Made by a program: the position numbers and the translations under genes | Notes under the pieces: generated by a model | What the model was told of the DNA's origin: nothing | Databases searched by the model: none | The model's input: only the letters and a program-made list of their open reading frames with translations | Shown here: positions 4,669 to 12,633 of the stretch, piece by piece | How the letters are laid out: each line of letters starts with the position of its first letter | Numbering within the stretch: the first letter of the stretch is position 1 | Assembly: GCA_949297055.1 (NCBI GenBank) | Contig: CASFRI010000039.1 | Span: 1-49,769, forward strand | Source: an uncultured bacterium | GTDB taxonomy: Bacteria; Bacillota_I; Bacilli_A; RFN20; CAG-826 | Direction of reading: 5' to 3' | DNA: 49,769 nt

Positions 4669-7017
4669 TTAACGATTATTCTGACGTTTTTTCTTATAAA
4701 TGACAATAGATGTAACGCTTGTTAGAATTAAGAAGATACTTAAAGATGCGACGATAAGTAAATAGTAGTTTTTATTCCCATTAATATGCGGGTAAGCGTT
4801 ATTTAAATCTAAACCAATAAAATCATTAAGCCCAAATGAAGTGTATTTATCGATGACTAGTTGATATCTAGTCCTAGCCTCCAAGATAGTAGAATCACTG
4901 CTTTCTTTAAAAATGTTTTTAGCGTCACTTATCATGAAATCATATTCTTGACTTAAAACATTCCAGTTTTCATCTAAAACACCTTTAAATAAATCCCAAG
5001 AAGCATTAGATCCACCACAATATTCACTTGTCATATCTAAGAAAAATTGTGCGTAAGCTTTGGCTTGATTGAAAGGTGAAACATCGTGAAGTATAACTTC
5101 GCCGCTATAATAATGTAGTTCAACGCTAATTAAGCGATTACGTTGACCATTCTTATCACTATTAACACCAATTAATAGACCAAATCTTAAAGACGGATAA
5201 TTTTGTTTCAAGTTATAACTTACTTCCGTTGGAGATAGACTCGTATCCACATTTATTCCATAAGTTCCAATATTAACTAAAGAATAAGAACTGCCATTAT
5301 CGAGCGAATAAATAATGTAAGCATCCATCTCTTTTTCGTTATATAAATTAAAAGATATTCCACTTGCATCATTAACATCAAAATTCATTCCAAAATAATA
5401 TAGGTTAGAATAACTATTCACTTGGTTATACCAAGAAGCATTCGTCACTAATATAGGTAATTTATTTCTACCTCTTTGCTCTGAATCATTCGCACCAATG
5501 TTAAGTCCGGTAGTGAAAGGATCCCAATCACCTTTATTTGCAAGCGAAGCGGACCACTTACGATTATCAGAAGAACTTAAAGTGATGGAATCATAAGGTC
5601 CATAAGATTGCATACTTTTTCCACTATTGCTTACTTCATTTTGATTAACGTTAATCGTCTCTTTTACTTCCGCAGGTGAAATTTCATCTACACCGACGTC
5701 AGCATTTTCGTTCGTGACGAAGACATTAATAACTTTTTCTAGACCTTGATAAGTAACTTTAATGGCTTGATTTCCTAGTTTCATCGTATCGATTTCGCTG
5801 ATGGAAGCGATGTCGCTAACATCGATGCGATTAGAATATTCATCAATGTAAGTTACTTCAATTGACGAATAATCGTAAGCTTTTCCTAATGGCGAACGAG
5901 TCACGTATTGACCGCTTATTTCTAAACTTGCTTCTCCTGGTTCAGGTGGAGTGATGCTTCCTCCCACTAAAGCGATAGCGTCTTCGTTAACGTTTGCATA
6001 ACCACTACTAGTGCCAAAAGCAATATCTGCCCAACTTGGAAAATCAATGAATGGATTTCTATTATGCTGATAATTGTTATAAATCAAATTATTACGATGA
6101 ATTTCATAATCTGAGACAGGATCTAAATGATGCCACTCTAAAAGAGTGGATACTAGTCCATAATAACCAGGTTTATTTTGTGTATCCACTGAAGATAATG
6201 TCCCTTGATTTGTAATTAAATTTACGTCATCAGTAAGTTCTAACCAAGGATCGGCCAAAGCACTAGTGAAGCTTGAATATCTTGCGGCCATATAAAATAA
6301 GGCTCTAGCAATATCACCTTTATCTTGATCGGGTGGTTCAAAAACCATCACTTTACTTCCATTAATTGTAGCGTAGCCTCTTACACCATAATGATCAACT
6401 TTCGTACCATAACTACTATCGTAAATTTTATCAACTTCTTCTACTTCCGCATAAGGATAATTTGAATGGGCGTGTTGATTAACATAAGAATCGCCTAACA
6501 TCAAATGATGTAAATCTGCGTAAGCTGGACCATCGTTTTCATCTTTACTAAAACCATGCGATTTAGACCAAATATGTTCTCTATCGATGTAAGTCCCATG
6601 GGTATCATTAATATGCGCGGCTGAACTTTCACCATTATCTAAGCGATAAAGCAAATGGACGTAAGGATTATCATCATATTGATAATTGCTCAATTGTTCT
6701 GCTGTTAATGGAGATTGCAACCAATCTCTTTCCGTAATTCTAGCCGTGTCCCACACATCCGCATAATTGAACCAACGATGGTTATTGCTCAATACATTTT
6801 GTAAACCATTTAATAAATCTTTGCCTTTCAAATTAGGACTTAAAGACGAATAATATTCTCTTACTTCTCCTTCGCTTAAATCTGAAACATTAATGTTATT
6901 AACAAGTGTTCCAGTCTTCGCTTCACTTTCAAAAGAAGAAATTAAAAATGAAGTAGAAATAGAAGTCACCAATAGACTTAAACTTAGAAAAGTAATAGCA
7001 AATATTTTCTTTTTCAT
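4669..7017 (-). CDS. Secreted, C-terminally membrane-anchored endonuclease I family nuclease
   Basis: This 782-residue protein starts with a signal peptide (KKKIFAITFLSLSLLV) and ends with a hydrophobic segment (about 752-775) followed by a basic KKKRQNNR stop-transfer tail, so the domains face outside. The nuclease part (about 45-350) carries DREHIWSKSHG with the catalytic His at 148, then ADLHHLMLGD and a NRNPFIDFP block, as in endonuclease I. The middle has an Ig-like region of the bacterial group 3 type (about 360-445, ISGQYVTRSPLGKAYDYS) and a beta-rich region (about 460-645), then a helical stretch before the anchor. It shares family, but not anchoring mode, with the lipoprotein nuclease at 459-2348. 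A TATAAT box lies 12 nt from the start and there is no Shine-Dalgarno, so the mRNA may be nearly leaderless. Confidence 0.87.
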   Translation of the reverse strand: MKKKIFAITFLSLSLLVTSISTSFLISSFESEAKTGTLVNNINVSDLSEGEVREYYSSLSPNLKGKDLLNGLQNVLSNNHRWFNYADVWDTARITERDWLQSPLTAEQLSNYQYDDNPYVHLLYRLDNGESSAAHINDTHGTYIDREHIWSKSHGFSKDENDGPAYADLHHLMLGDSYVNQHAHSNYPYAEVEEVDKIYDSSYGTKVDHYGVRGYATINGSKVMVFEPPDQDKGDIARALFYMAARYSSFTSALADPWLELTDDVNLITNQGTLSSVDTQNKPGYYGLVSTLLEWHHLDPVSDYEIHRNNLIYNNYQHNRNPFIDFPSWADIAFGTSSGYANVNEDAIALVGGSITPPEPGEASLEISGQYVTRSPLGKAYDYSSIEVTYIDEYSNRIDVSDIASISEIDTMKLGNQAIKVTYQGLEKVINVFVTNENADVGVDEISPAEVKETINVNQNEVSNSGKSMQSYGPYDSITLSSSDNRKWSASLANKGDWDPFTTGLNIGANDSEQRGRNKLPILVTNASWYNQVNSYSNLYYFGMNFDVNDASGISFNLYNEKEMDAYIIYSLDNGSSYSLVNIGTYGINVDTSLSPTEVSYNLKQNYPSLRFGLLIGVNSDKNGQRNRLISVELHYYSGEVILHDVSPFNQAKAYAQFFLDMTSEYCGGSNASWDLFKGVLDENWNVLSQEYDFMISDAKNIFKESSDSTILEARTRYQLVIDKYTSFGLNDFIGLDLNNAYPHINGNKNYYLLIVASLSIFLILTSVTSIVIYKKKRQNNR

Positions 7018-7497: not shown

Positions 7498-8412
7498 TTA
7501 AAATATTTCTTTAGAGATAATATCTCTAATTTTTGCTTTATCTTCCTCTAATTGCTGACTTAATTCATCCGTCGTATTAAATTTATATTCTGGTCTTATT
7601 TTCCTTAAGAATTGGACGTAAAGTCTCCAATCATAAATTTGTAAAGTAAAATCTAAGATGTGTACTTCTAAAATAGGAATATCAAGTTCGTTTATAGTCG
7701 GATGCACCCCGACGTTAGCCATAGCAAAATGAGGTTCGCCGCGCACGAAAACGCGGACGAGATAAACACCATTTTCAGGTAATAAATAAGGTGCGTCAAA
7801 AGCAAGATTCGCCGTCGGGAAATTTAATTTCTTGCCTTCCCCTTTCCCATGTATTACAGTTCCACTTACTTCGTAAAAACGACCAAGAATTTTACTTACC
7901 TCATCAACTTTTCCTTCTTTTAACAAAGAATAGACGCGGCTAGAAGATAATTTACCTTCTTTATCTTCCACCATCTCGACTGGATGAACATTAAAATATT
8001 CTTCTAGAGTAGAAATATCACCTAAATTATCTTTTCCAAAGTGAAAATCTTCTCCGACGTATATTTCTTTCGTACCTAATGGCAATAAGATTTTTTCGAT
8101 GAAATCTAAAGCGCTCATAGTGGCAAGATTTTCATCAAATTTAATGTTGATTTGAAAACTTACACCTAACGAAGATAAAATTCTTCCTTTATCCCCTTCG
8201 CTTAAAACAAGTTTATCACCTTTATTATTAAAAAATTCATGTGGAGAAGGAACAAAAGAAATGACTCCAACTGGTCTAGATAAATTTTTGCAAGCTTCTT
8301 TAATGAGAGCTTGATGACCAAGATGTAAAGTTTTAAAAGCCCCAATGCAAAGGCAAAGATTATTATCTAATTTTCTTATTTTTGTATTTTCATCGATATT
8401 AATAATTCTCAT
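7498..8412 (-). CDS. ribF: Bifunctional riboflavin kinase / FAD synthetase
   Basis: The protein (304 aa) has the usual length. The N-terminal FMN adenylyltransferase domain (1-170) shows GAFKTLHLGHQALI, the nucleotidyltransferase HxGH site, and SSSRVYSLLKEG. The C-terminal flavokinase domain (about 180-300) shows GKGEGKKLNFPTANL. It converts riboflavin to FMN and FAD in the cytosol. The start codon overlaps the truB stop by 4 nt (ATGA), so the two are translationally coupled. The gene order truB-ribF-rpsO is typical of Firmicutes. Confidence 0.96.
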   Translation of the reverse strand: MRIINIDENTKIRKLDNNLCLCIGAFKTLHLGHQALIKEACKNLSRPVGVISFVPSPHEFFNNKGDKLVLSEGDKGRILSSLGVSFQINIKFDENLATMSALDFIEKILLPLGTKEIYVGEDFHFGKDNLGDISTLEEYFNVHPVEMVEDKEGKLSSSRVYSLLKEGKVDEVSKILGRFYEVSGTVIHGKGEGKKLNFPTANLAFDAPYLLPENGVYLVRVFVRGEPHFAMANVGVHPTINELDIPILEVHILDFTLQIYDWRLYVQFLRKIRPEYKFNTTDELSQQLEEDKAKIRDIISKEIF

Positions 8413-9260
8413 AATAGCCCTCTTTTAGAATAGTATAATCTATCGATCCCTCTTTCATAAATAGCTTTTATTTTCCCACTGCTCTTTAATTTTATTAAAA
8501 CGACGTCTTCTTTACTTTCTAGATGAATTTTTGCCCCATTAATAATTTTCTTTTCATCTATTCCCCCTACTTCGATAACTTTTAAAAAATACATAGCCTC
8601 TTCTAAAGGAATGACATCGCTTTCTTTTATATCTTCTGCAATCTTTGCTTTTTCTGAAGAAAATTTACCAATTTTTTGTCTTAAAAGACCATCTAAATGA
8701 CCGATGGTATTTAATTTTTTAGCGATTTCTTCTCCTAAAGTTCGGACGTAAGTACCTTTTGAACAAGTTAAAGAAAAAATGAGATGTTCTTTATCAAAAC
8801 TTATCAAATTAATATCATCGATAAATATTTTCCTTGGCTTCCTTTCAATTTCTTTACCACGCCTCGCTAATTTGTAGAGTGGGACACCATCTATTTTAAT
8901 AGCGCTAAACATAGGAGGAGTTTGTAAACTTTCCCCAAGAAATGATTTTAATGTTTCATTTATTTGTTCTTTATTTAAATTAGGAATCTTTTCTTCTTTA
9001 ATTACTTCCCCTTCTTTATCACCACTATTCGTAGCGGCGCCAAGCATTAATGAAGCAAAATAAGTCTTATGTAAATTTTCGAAAAATTGAATGCACTTCA
9101 ATCCCTCATTAACGCCAACGATTAAAAGTCCACTCGCGAAAGGATCTAAACTTCCAGCATGACCAAATTTATCGTTTGGAAAAGCTTTCGCTAAGACATT
9201 AACGATATCGCGTGAGGTTGGACCAATTGGTTTATTAACTAACAAAATTCCATCTTTCAT
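8409..9260 (-). CDS. truB: tRNA pseudouridine-55 synthase
   Basis: This 283-residue protein makes the conserved pseudouridine in the T-loop of tRNAs. VNKPIGPTSRDIV is the family N-terminus. The catalytic motif is GHAGSLDPFASG with Asp39; most family members have GHTGTLDP, so there are two conservative changes. Later blocks LQTPPMFSAIKIDG, LYKLARRG and CSKGTYVRTLGEEI are all present, and a short C-terminal PUA-like part follows. A TATAAT box lies only 7 nt from the ATG and there is no Shine-Dalgarno, so the transcript is probably leaderless. truB is normally in the rbfA operon; here an opposite-strand gene splits them and truB has gained its own promoter. Confidence 0.96.
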   Translation of the reverse strand: MKDGILLVNKPIGPTSRDIVNVLAKAFPNDKFGHAGSLDPFASGLLIVGVNEGLKCIQFFENLHKTYFASLMLGAATNSGDKEGEVIKEEKIPNLNKEQINETLKSFLGESLQTPPMFSAIKIDGVPLYKLARRGKEIERKPRKIFIDDINLISFDKEHLIFSLTCSKGTYVRTLGEEIAKKLNTIGHLDGLLRQKIGKFSSEKAKIAEDIKESDVIPLEEAMYFLKVIEVGGIDEKKIINGAKIHLESKEDVVLIKLKSSGKIKAIYERGIDRLYYSKRGLL

Positions 9261-9267
9261 GCTTAAA

Positions 9268-9273
9268 ATTATA
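9268..9273 (-). promoter_or_regulatory. -10 box of truB (leaderless)
   Basis: TATAAT on the minus strand ends 7 nt before the truB ATG, placing the transcript start at or next to the start codon. A weak TTTTCA-like -35 is about 18 nt upstream. It lies within 60 nt of the divergent ttcA-like gene. Confidence 0.65.
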
Positions 9274-9313
9274 CGTTTAATTTTTTCAAAGTGAAAACAC
9301 CTTCTTTATTCGT

Positions 9314-9319
9314 TATAAT
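9314..9319 (+). promoter_or_regulatory. -10 box of the ttcA-like gene (leaderless)
   Basis: TATAAT is followed by 9 nt and then the ATG at 9329, with no Shine-Dalgarno between. This mirrors the divergent truB -10 box, so both genes of the pair look leaderless. Confidence 0.6.
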
Positions 9320-9328
9320 AAAACCCGT

Positions 9329-10441
9329 ATGAAAATGATAAGAACTGTTTTAGCTAAAATTAGACGCGCGGACGAAAAATATAACCTAATTCAAGCAAAA
9401 GATAAAATTGTTATTGGAATCTCAGGTGGGAAAGATTCTATGGTTTTATTTTATGCGATGTCCTTATATTCAAAATTCAATCGTAAAAAATTTAAAATTT
9501 TTCCTGTTATTCTCGACTTAGGTTTTGATCATTTTGATCCCACTCCTATTAAAGAATATATCAAATCATTAGGCTATGATTTAATTATCGAAGATGCAAG
9601 AAGCGTCTATCAAATTTTAAAAGATAATCAAAAAGAAGATAAACATTTACCTTGTTCGATTTGTTCACGCATGAAAAAAGCTTGTATCGATAAAGTCGCT
9701 AAAAGATTAAAAGCTAACAAAGTGATGTTTGCCCATCACGCAGATGACGCTATCGAAACATTATTCATGAATATGATGCATGGCAAAAGAATTGCTACTT
9801 TTTCTCCTAAGATGCATCTTAGCGTAGATAATATTACTTTCATCCGCCCTTTAATCTACGTTCACGAAAATGAAATTAGAAGGACAATTAACGAGGAAAA
9901 TATCCCTGTTTTACCAATAATTTGTCCTTCCGACCATCAAACTGAACGTGAAAATATCAAAAATTTTTTAAATGAACACATCTATAAAAAATATCCCATT
10001 TGCAAAGATGGTTTTTTAGAAATGTTAGAAGATTATAAGCATCTTGACATCTACTTTGATAAAGAAGACATTACAATTAAAAATGATTTACATATGCTAC
10101 CTGTTTACGATGTCGATACATATTTAGATTACGACCATTTCTTTAAGAAAAAACATGCACGTTCCTACAAAGAAAAAAATTTGAGTAGATATTTGATTTA
10201 TAAAAATGATCGTCTCATAGGAGCGTTTTCTTCTTGCTTAGTAATAAAAACATTAGTGATTTATGACTTCTTATTAACGGATGATAAATTCTTTAAAGAT
10301 ATATTAGATTTCATCATTATTTTCTATAAGAAAAAGATTGTTCCATTAGACGTAGAAGTAACGACGAAGAAAAACCGCAAACAGTTCCTTGCTTACGGTT
10401 TTACATCTCTAGAAGATGGTACGTTATATTTAAAAGTTTAA
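9329..10441 (+). CDS. TtcA-type tRNA 2-thiocytidine synthetase with a GNAT-like C-terminal extension
   Basis: Residues 1-240 are a PP-loop ATPase of the TtcA group: SGGKDS (32-37) binds ATP, PCSIC (C109, C112) followed by SRMKK, and C199 in LPIIC match the three cysteines that hold the TtcA iron-sulfur cluster. HHADDAIETLFMNMM is the family motif. TtcA thiolates C32 in the tRNA anticodon loop. The protein is 370 residues while TtcA is usually about 250-310; residues about 265-370 look like a small acetyltransferase fold (YLIYKNDRLIGAF, strand-rich, then KQFLAYGF near the end, as in the GNAT motif yGF). It is the only plus-strand gene within the translation cluster and overlaps rbfA tail to tail by 4 nt. 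A second possible start, two codons later, cannot be excluded. Confidence 0.85.
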   Translation: MKMIRTVLAKIRRADEKYNLIQAKDKIVIGISGGKDSMVLFYAMSLYSKFNRKKFKIFPVILDLGFDHFDPTPIKEYIKSLGYDLIIEDARSVYQILKDNQKEDKHLPCSICSRMKKACIDKVAKRLKANKVMFAHHADDAIETLFMNMMHGKRIATFSPKMHLSVDNITFIRPLIYVHENEIRRTINEENIPVLPIICPSDHQTERENIKNFLNEHIYKKYPICKDGFLEMLEDYKHLDIYFDKEDITIKNDLHMLPVYDVDTYLDYDHFFKKKHARSYKEKNLSRYLIYKNDRLIGAFSSCLVIKTLVIYDFLLTDDKFFKDILDFIIIFYKKKIVPLDVEVTTKKNRKQFLAYGFTSLEDGTLYLKV

Positions 10442-10782
10442 TGTTTTAAAAGTTCACTAATGTGTTCGTAATTATCATAACTTTCATCTAAATAAAATCT
10501 AAGTTCTGGTGTCTTACGCATCGAAAGCATATGAGCGAGGCTACTTCTAATCATGCCTCCTTTATTTTTAAGATGCTCTAAGGCTTCGAATTTATCTTTG
10601 ACGCCAAGAAAAGAAACATAAATTTTTGCTAAGCCTAAATCGGATGTCACTTCGATCTCATTTACGCTTACAAGACCGAAACTTTTCCCTTTAATATCTT
10701 TAGATATAATTTCTCTAAGATGCTTAGCGATTAAAGCTTTCGCCCGATTATTCGTATTTTTATTACCTAATTTATGTGGCAT
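10438..10782 (-). CDS. rbfA: 30S ribosome-binding factor A
   Basis: This 114-residue KH-like protein helps mature the 3'/5' ends of 16S rRNA in the small subunit. The segment IEVTSDLGLAKIYVSFLG and the later LRFYLDESYDNYEHISELL match the family (usual DxSxDxxxAxVYVS and FxxDxSxxxxxxIxxLL). It follows infB by 6 nt and ends the rimP operon. It overlaps the convergent ttcA-like gene by 4 nt, so no separate terminator is present between them. Confidence 0.93.
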   Translation of the reverse strand: MPHKLGNKNTNNRAKALIAKHLREIISKDIKGKSFGLVSVNEIEVTSDLGLAKIYVSFLGVKDKFEALEHLKNKGGMIRSSLAHMLSMRKTPELRFYLDESYDNYEHISELLKH

Positions 10783-10788
10783 AAAAAA

Positions 10789-12633
10789 TTAATCTTCTTT
10801 CATCTCTTTAATGACGTAAGCTTCCACTTCGTCACCTTCCTTTAAATCGTTATAATTTTCGATTGTAAAGCCACATTCAAAACCAGATTTAACTTCTTTG
10901 GCGTCGTCTTTAAATCGTTTTAATGAACCAAATTTGCCATCGTAGATGACAATTCCATCACGAATTAAACGGACGCTTGCGTCTCTTCTAATACTTCCGT
11001 CAGTGACGTAAGCCCCCGCAATTGTTCCAACTTTTGAAGCTCTAAAAAGATGACGAATTTCCGCTCTTCCGATGACGACTTCTTCTAGCTTTGCCTTCTT
11101 CATACCTTTTAACGCTGCTTCCATCTCTTCGATTAAAGCATAGATGATGTTATGTAGACGAATATCTACTTTTTCTTCGTTAGCCTTCATTTTCACTAAA
11201 TTATCAGGTCTAACATTAAATCCATAGATGATAGCATTAGAGGCACTAGCGAGCAAGACATCGCTTTCCGTAATCGCCCCAGCGGTCGCACGAATAATTT
11301 TTACTTTCACTTCATCATTACTTAGTTTTTCTAAGCTCGATTTAATAGCTTCTGCTGAACCATTCGTATCAGCTTTGATGATGACGTTAACTTCTTTCAT
11401 TTCACCTTCATGAATTCGTTCGTATAAATCATCGAGACTAATAGCTTTAGAAGCTTGTCTTTCTTCATTCATCTTTAGATGACGTTTATAAGCGATATCG
11501 CGTGCTTGCTTTTCACTAGGGAAAGCCATAAATAAATCGCCCGCCTTGGGCACTTCAGATAGACCGATGATAGAAACAGGAGTCGAAGGTGAGGCTACTT
11601 TTAAAATCTTTTTAAATTCATTAGTCATTCTTCTCACTTTACCAAAACATGTTCCAACGACGACGTAATCGCTCGCGTTAAGCGTACCATTTTGCACAAG
11701 TAAAGTAGCTTTTGGACCTTCACCTTTGTCAAGCTTTGCTTCTAAGACTGTGCCCATCGCATAACGATTAGGATTAGCTTTTAATTCCTGCATTTCCGCC
11801 ATGACTAAAATATTTTCTAATAATTCATCGATACCTTGACCTTTTTTCGCAGCGATATTTAAAAATATCGTATCGCCACCATATTCTTCAGGAACGACAT
11901 TTAAAGCCATAAGTTCATTTTTAACTTTATCGATGTTCGCGCCCGGCTTATCAATTTTGTTAATAGCGACTAAGATTGGTACATTCGCCGCTCTTGCGTG
12001 ATCGATAGCTTCTTTAGTTTGAGGCATGACTCCATCATCCGCTGCGACAACTAAGATAATAATATCGGTCACTTTAGCCCCACGGCTTCGCATTTCAGCG
12101 AAGGCTTCGTGTCCAGGCGTATCTATGAAAGTAATTTTCTTCCCATGATATTCTTTTTGATAAGCCCCAATAGCTTGAGAAATACCGCCCACTTCGCTTT
12201 CGACAAGATGGGAATTTCTAATTGCGTCGATAAGAGTAGTTTTGCCATGGTCGACGTGACCCATAATCGTCACGACTGGGGGGCGTTCCACTAAATCTTT
12301 TGGATCATCGATGACGTTAAGTTTTTCAAAATCTTCTTCAGCGACGATTTCTTCTTTTCTAAAATCGTAACCAAATTCGAGGCACACTTCACCTAAAGTT
12401 TCTTCGTCTAATGTTTGGTTAATAGTCACCATCTTGCGTTTATTTAAAAAGAGATATTTGATAATTTGTGAAGTTTCAATATTTAAAGATTTCGCTAATT
12501 CGGCAATCGTAGGTATTTGCGAGTAGACGAAACAGCCATTATTAACTTTAGCTTTATTATCGTTACGTCTTTTTTCACTCGTGACATTAGAAATACGATT
12601 CTTGCTATTATTATTTTTATTTTTATCTTTCAT
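10789..12633 (-). CDS. infB: Translation initiation factor IF-2 (short form)
   Basis: This is a 614-residue GTPase that brings fMet-tRNA to the 30S subunit. After a short basic Asn/Lys-rich leader comes one IF2 N-terminal segment (about 35-85, [12 protein letters not shown]), then the G domain with [18 protein letters not shown] and NKID, followed by domains II, III and the C-terminal fMet-binding domain. The long variable N-terminus of Bacillus IF2 is missing, as in Mollicutes. I chose the ATG at 12633 because GAGG lies about 8 nt upstream; the in-frame ATG at 12654 overlaps ylxQ and has no ribosome site. The stop of ylxQ lies 10 nt before this start. Confidence 0.97.

Follow-up and report, generated by a model that had tools for sequence, protein, structure and literature searches.

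A predicted TtcA-family tRNA thiolase fused to a GNAT-fold domain without acetyl-CoA motif in an order of Bacilli

What might an acetyltransferase-like domain do at the end of a tRNA thiolase? The question is raised by a gene on contig CASFRI010000039.1 (GenBank assembly GCA_949297055.1; all 49,769 nucleotides analysed, here called the window) of an uncultured bacterium assigned to CAG-826 (RFN20, Bacilli_A). An earlier, sequence-only reading described its product as an intact TtcA thiolase followed by approximately 105 additional, acetyltransferase-like residues, and proposed that tRNA acetylation and tRNA thiolation are combined in this single protein. We examined this proposal computationally. 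The relevant features are:

9329..10441, + strand: whole fusion gene, a TtcA-family core followed by a C-terminal pseudo-GNAT domain (ORF of 370 aa; orthologs)
9329..10057, + strand: TtcA-family PP-loop/Fe-S core, residues 1-243 (Pfam, NCBIfam, Foldseek)
9422..9439, + strand: PP-loop SGGKDS, residues 32-37 (sequence, alignment)
9653..9664, + strand: C109-S-I-C112, predicted Fe-S ligands (alignment)
9923..9925, + strand: C199, predicted third Fe-S ligand (alignment)
10058..10438, + strand: pseudo-GNAT domain, residues 244-370 (models, fold searches, profile comparison)
10277..10288, + strand: TDDK, residues 317-320, between beta4 and alpha3, at the place of the acetyl-CoA P-loop of intact orthologs (alignment)
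8409..9260, - strand: truB, conserved divergent neighbour (context; Pfam TruB_N, E 5.7e-50)
10438..10782, - strand: rbfA, conserved neighbour whose 3' end shares 4 nt with the fusion gene (context)

The gene, its surroundings and the TtcA-family core

The ORF runs from an ATG start to a TAA stop without internal stop codons. Full-length orthologs (370, 369, and 369 aa) occur in three genomes of this genus, with identities of 89%, 68% and 65% across the matched part. Because of these three congeneric full-length orthologs and the purifying selection seen in the window pair (see below), the protein is far from a chance product.

The gene is flanked by rbfA and truB, which are both encoded on the opposite strand; the former we take to be rbfA from its own sequence and its position beside infB. 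The coordinates bear out the earlier observation that the gene splits this pair. In relatives whose upstream flank spans 500 bases or more, truB is the divergently oriented upstream gene in 41 of 42 fusions with an intact GNAT tail, 42 of 56 with a degenerate ("pseudo") tail, and 12 of 20 unfused relatives; among those with at least 200 bases of downstream flank, rbfA follows in 31/40, 35/57, and 2/21, respectively, and missed neighbours may sit past short flanks. The "split operon" is thus an old, conserved arrangement and no recent insertion. In nine loci of genus g27 (L024, L078, L083, L085, L086, L111, L113, L114, and L117) ribF is located divergently upstream of the fused gene without a truB match, and truB seems to have gone from the fusion locus in these genomes. 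Scans of positions 8300-10900 for promoters (11 promoter-like sites vs 12.7 expected) and terminators (1 terminator-like site vs 1.3 expected) were uninformative. Elsewhere in the window, positions 4669-7017 (- strand) encode a 782-aa protein with an Endonuclease I domain (Pfam E 1.7e-32), an Ig-like match below threshold and, by eye, a signal peptide and a C-terminal membrane segment, possibly a surface nuclease.

The core of the fusion protein matches Pfam ATP_bind_3 (E 4.2e-17), and its best NCBIfam model is TtcA (163.4 bits, E 7.2e-48, residues 3-237). Because this score is below the curated equivalog cut-off of 272, the core is identified, from its sequence, as TtcA at the family level only; three unfused Bacilli relatives likewise score below this cut-off (186-202 bits). 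In a Foldseek search of the PDB the full-length model finds its best matches in TtuA/NcsA structures (best E 2.3e-14). TtuA and NcsA possess an N-terminal CxxC zinc finger, but the window protein has none, as there is no cysteine before residue 109. A radical SAM domain was not found by Pfam either, the core being of the PP-loop ATP_bind_3 type. The TtcA part is intact, as had been stated: SGGKDS, presumably the ATP site, as well as C109, C112, and C199 are all present and are invariant across 33 aligned fused proteins, including that of the window. TtcA is among the closest known counterparts: the SGGKDS motif, the CxxC, and the third cysteine align with those of E. coli TtcA (b1344), a correspondence seen by alignment only. 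However, the two proteins share only 26% identity, E. coli TtcA has CNLC where the window protein has the single C199, and no GNAT domain is present in the E. coli protein in the alignment. The second CxxC, described as C203-N-L-C206 for P. aeruginosa TtcA (PMC6082896), is thus incomplete here, with C199 standing alone in CPSD.

TtcA is reported to bind ATP and a [4Fe-4S] cluster (PMC5372739; PMC6082896), and by analogy the window core should do the same. The window protein would then be an ATP- and [4Fe-4S]-dependent tRNA sulfurtransferase of the TtcA family, whose core would activate its target base with ATP and subsequently pass on cluster-bound sulfur. By analogy with TtcA this base may be C32. 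C32 occurs in all four Arg tRNAs found and in 19 of 33 distinct tRNAs (read from 30 of 41 loci and from the window), too commonly to serve as a discriminating sign of a TtcA target, and was dropped as such. Since one paper (PMC4014445) names a single TtcA homolog for the Mollicutes, in M. penetrans, s2C32 is not established in this part of the tree.

Ancestry and fold of the C-terminal domain and loss of its acetyl-CoA site

The additional C-terminal part does exist but is slightly longer than the approximately 105 residues first noted, i.e., about 124-127 residues (244-370). Both segments that had drawn attention are located within it: KNDRLIGAF (292-300) is modelled as the transition from a strand (286-292) via a turn to a second strand (295-305), while FLAYGF (353-358) falls at the end of a helix (350-356). 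By itself, the window tail has no Pfam or NCBIfam match even at E<=10, and because direct family searches were empty it could be placed only through its orthologs. In several of these (L016, L006, L029, L034, and L038) the tail is a plain GNAT above the Pfam cut-offs, and the intact ortholog domain matches SACOL1063 (E 1.3e-31), YjcF (1q2y; E 3.5e-29), and ElaA (E 1.6e-19).

Scored against a profile of intact tails, 100 sampled fused proteins fall into two classes, 42 intact-type at 161-238 bits and 58 pseudo at 40.4 bits or less, with the window tail at 9.2 bits. The labels are these very scores, and the profile itself derives from 34 of the 42 intact tails; the contrasts between 42/42 and 0/58 given below are therefore partly built in by the labelling, whereas the score gap between the classes is not. 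The 100 proteins come from search loci and hand-picked matches across genera and are a non-random sample; L158 (cut by its stretch) was excluded from all sets and L043 (stop inside) from the tree. Pfam Acetyltransf_10, _7, and _1 match all 34 intact tails scanned, and in a single-sequence search at E<=0.1 Acetyltransf_1 and Acetyltransf_10 each match one of 44 pseudo tails. Comparison of these 44 pseudo tails with the 34 intact ones by hhalign nevertheless links the classes over 125 columns (probability 99.2, E 1.2e-19), and even the four tails of the window genus alone match the intact profile (probability 90.3, E 1.5e-6). In the alignment the window tail is the same domain as that of the intact orthologs, minus the acetyl-CoA loop.

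The structural models agree. AlphaFold modelled the whole protein with a pLDDT of 91.1, and the domain alone, from an alignment of pseudo tails only that contained no intact GNAT, with a pLDDT of 94.5 and a pTM of 0.86. The order of elements in the modelled domain (beta-alpha-beta-beta-beta-alpha-beta-alpha-beta) is that of the GNAT core. The GNAT part needed a separate model for fold searches, the best 50 PDB matches of the whole-protein model being PP-loop proteins; of the 923 PDB matches of the domain model, 12 have E<=0.001 (best E 2.6e-4), and nearly all of the best 50 carry an acetyltransferase annotation. VIA aligned the domain with RimL (1s7k; Z 12.4, rmsd 2.8, 118 aligned), YjcF (1q2y; Z 12.2, rmsd 2.6, 115 aligned), and SACOL1063 (5jph; Z 12.0, rmsd 2.8, 118 aligned), Z-scores that we regard as ties. 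The C-terminal domain is thus a GNAT by ancestry and by fold. The sequence-only reading had named two outcomes that would speak against it, a non-GNAT fold and a missing acetyl-CoA site: the fold is that of a GNAT, and by sequence the site is missing.

Where intact orthologs carry, for example, EYRNKGYG, the window protein has TDDK, a loop that is four aligned positions shorter and contains no glycine. The GNAT P-loop consensus Q/R-x-x-G-x-G/A (described in PMC4964394) is present in 33 of 42 intact tails, the remaining nine being one P-loop position off, and in none of the 58 pseudo tails, including that of the window. R70, R82, Y127, and H146, invariant in 42/42 intact tails, are kept in 0, 3, 6, and 0 of 58 pseudo tails, with gaps scored as not kept: Y127 is a gap in 29 pseudo tails, and since 33-55 of the 58 are unaligned ahead of approximately column 45 and beyond approximately column 135, the counts for H146 and other edge columns include gaps and are not all true losses. 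The window protein carries S, D, L, and a gap at these four positions. By contrast, 43 of the 58 pseudo tails retain G67 and 48 retain P112.

The resemblance to an acetyltransferase thus holds for descent and fold but not for the acetyl-CoA site, and because the P-loop and the residues invariant in orthologs are missing, acetylation by the window protein, and with it the proposed coupling of acetylation to thiolation in this protein, is not supported by its sequence. That the protein is an active acetyltransferase which acetylates tRNA beside thiolating it would be consistent with its homology to intact GNAT fusions, but the missing active-site motifs and the lack of a GNAT match in Pfam or NCBIfam make this extremely improbable. 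In a milder variant the domain would bind acetyl-CoA, or a different acyl-CoA, in a non-standard manner and act either as a sensor or, coupled to the thiolase, as an Elp3-like acetyl donor. Binding is formally possible, because true GNATs with atypical P-loops that bind are described (PMC4964394) and nine of the 42 intact tails deviate from the consensus as well; the GNAT fold is the same, and Elp3 is reported to couple KAT and [4Fe-4S] domains on tRNA via acetate transfer (PMC13315578). The shortened loop without glycine, the lost R, R, Y, and H, and the absence of the radical SAM domain that Elp3 possesses argue against it, and we consider it quite unlikely.

Distribution, evolutionary history and selection

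Of 58 genomes, including that of the window, 55 have a match, in some genomes no more than a weak one to a related PP-loop protein; 30 of the strongest were made into loci, in which most proteins are at least 340 aa long. In an order-level survey 270 of 279 genomes yielded some match, paralogs included; some genomes, e.g., G025, have only weaker matches of a second TtcA-like kind. The full intact fusion as a query gave at least 51 matches at 512 bits or more, the next one being 447 among the matches listed. The TtcA-GNAT fusion is a genuine and frequent feature of this order of Bacilli, and the search for orthologs that share it, which the sequence-only reading had suggested, yields many with a recognisable YjcF/ElaA-type GNAT in the same place.

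On the tree of the cores the intact and pseudo labels need seven changes, four of which are forced by starred branches. Constraining the pseudo forms to a single clade costs 138 log-likelihood units (p-AU 3.5e-7; a thinned set of 51 pseudo and 35 intact proteins, tested after the first tree had been seen), which rejects one origin; the pseudo forms arose more than once. Because of this, and because a functional GNAT is expected to have come first, repeated loss of the acetyl-CoA site is probable. A probable course of events is that a YjcF/ElaA-type GNAT was fused to a TtcA-family enzyme in an ancestor of this order, and that the window genus retained the GNAT fold and lost the acetyl-CoA site, and hence would no longer acetylate.

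In five of seven unfused outgroup genomes a standalone relative of the GNAT occurs (145-151 aa, E 1.6e-23 or better). At a threshold of E<=1e-8, neither the window genome nor its three genus mates show a YjcF-type GNAT, and therefore the acetyltransferase activity has not moved to a separate gene in the window genus. Five of the 16 pseudo-fusion genomes searched (G029, G020, G014, G021, and G035) do encode a separate related GNAT (strongest in G029, E 2.6e-28, and G020, E 2.2e-26); this separate protein may have assumed the activity in some of the pseudo lineages. The domain is not indispensable everywhere, since it is shortened in some relatives (L025, L011, and L108; 338-343 aa) and missing in L021 and L137 of genus g9 (242-246 aa), possibly through recent loss. 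Genus g9 also has a full-length intact-type match, in genome G210.

Compared with its closest relative (L001), the window shows an omega of 0.149 (95% CI 0.074-0.272) in the pseudo-domain, against 0.084 (0.048-0.138) in the core; the pseudo-domain is still under purifying selection. Values for the domain in nine disjoint pseudo pairs range from 0.059 to 0.481; the comparison was restricted to pairs whose cores are similar and whose synonymous sites are not saturated, several other pairs being saturated. Median domain/core omega ratios of 2.12 (nine pseudo pairs) and 2.47 (eight intact disjoint pairs) are alike (p 0.48), so that the domain is not visibly relaxed after loss of the site. These data bear on the explanation that the domain is a decaying passenger, a former acetyltransferase without a role that persists because deletion is slow or because the core tolerates it. 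The lack of the P-loop consensus in 58/58 pseudo tails, the shortened and lost versions in relatives and a domain omega roughly twice that of the core would all fit. However, omega is well below 1 in the window pair and in the other pseudo pairs, constraint relative to the core is no weaker than in intact copies, a confidently modelled fold persists after loss of the site, and the domain is full length in the window and its three genus mates. A passenger is, therefore, somewhat unlikely.

Possible roles of the pseudo-domain

Since the acetyl-CoA site is gone here yet present in related bacteria, the retained domain suggests a job other than acetylation. We favour, as the probable reading, a thiolase with a non-catalytic, formerly GNAT module that may help to hold or position the tRNA, or to dimerise. 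A role in tRNA binding would be analogous to that of other GNAT folds: for ATE1 the GNAT domain is described as the main tRNA-binding site (PMC10115844), and FemX, L-PGS, and LFTR also use a GNAT fold to bind tRNA (PMC10115844; PMC2922099), although these proteins bind aminoacyl-tRNA for transfer and have no thiolase core. An independent sign of tRNA contact was not found by comparison of charge: the mean net charge per residue is higher in pseudo than in intact domains (+0.044 vs -0.005, raw p 4e-9), but this difference vanishes when relatedness is considered (four independent pairs, median p 1), and basic charge was dropped as evidence for RNA binding. In the window protein the net charge is +3 for the domain and +8 for the core.

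Parallels for a GNAT fold that has lost its P-loop signature within a multidomain enzyme are described for the pseudo-HAT domain of human O-GlcNAcase, in which an altered P-loop accompanies loss of acetyl-CoA binding (PMC3919268), and for the inactive central GNAT of an aminoglycoside acetyltransferase (PMC4964394), but neither modifies tRNA and their partner domains are unrelated. Elp3, which acts in the formation of cm5U34, is described as likewise carrying its [4Fe-4S] tRNA-modifying domain together with a GNAT-fold domain on a single chain (PMC13315578); it combines radical SAM with KAT/GNAT and uses acetyl-CoA, whereas the window protein is a PP-loop sulfurtransferase without acetyl-CoA motif. 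The GNATs YjcF, ElaA, and SACOL1063, which the intact orthologs resemble by sequence and the window domain by fold, differ in that the domain is here fused to a thiolase and, in the window copy, has lost P-loop and invariant residues.

The fused ancestors raise a further idea, namely that intact fusions are bifunctional on one tRNA, where they might form an acetylated thiocytidine, for example, or gate thiolation by means of acetyl-CoA, and that many lineages, including that of the window, dropped the acetyl step and kept the fold to bind tRNA. We regard this as unlikely; if true, sulfur and acetyl chemistry would be coupled in tRNA in a new way, and the fusions would form a natural series that leads from enzyme to pseudo-enzyme. 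The occurrence of intact and dead GNATs on the same thiolase offers a natural series for studying what a GNAT can do without acetyl-CoA. No report of a TtcA-GNAT fusion was found among the titles and abstract openings retrieved from an open-licence library, and the locus joins, in an order of small-genome Bacilli, two enzyme families that we did not find reported together there.

A few relatives differ in the make of their tails. Short TtcA-like proteins of families f2 (L033 and L042) and f25 (L133) have GNAT tails of another make, with RKQGLG kept in L033 and replaced by YNKNIE in its sister L042. These look like separate fusions and, because the tails differ in make, this subfamily of thiolases may have acquired a GNAT on more than one occasion, which, if so, hints at a functional link and not one accident. 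Outside the order, 15 of 17 fetched sequences of the subfamily are unfused (242-262 aa), the others being L133 and L134, the latter (L134:595-1539) a short TtcA-like protein extended at its C terminus by about 80 residues for which Pfam gave no family. A second group of TtcA-like proteins in Bacilli (L154-L157, L159, and L160; 256-288 aa) is set apart from the fused group with an SH-aLRT of 100.
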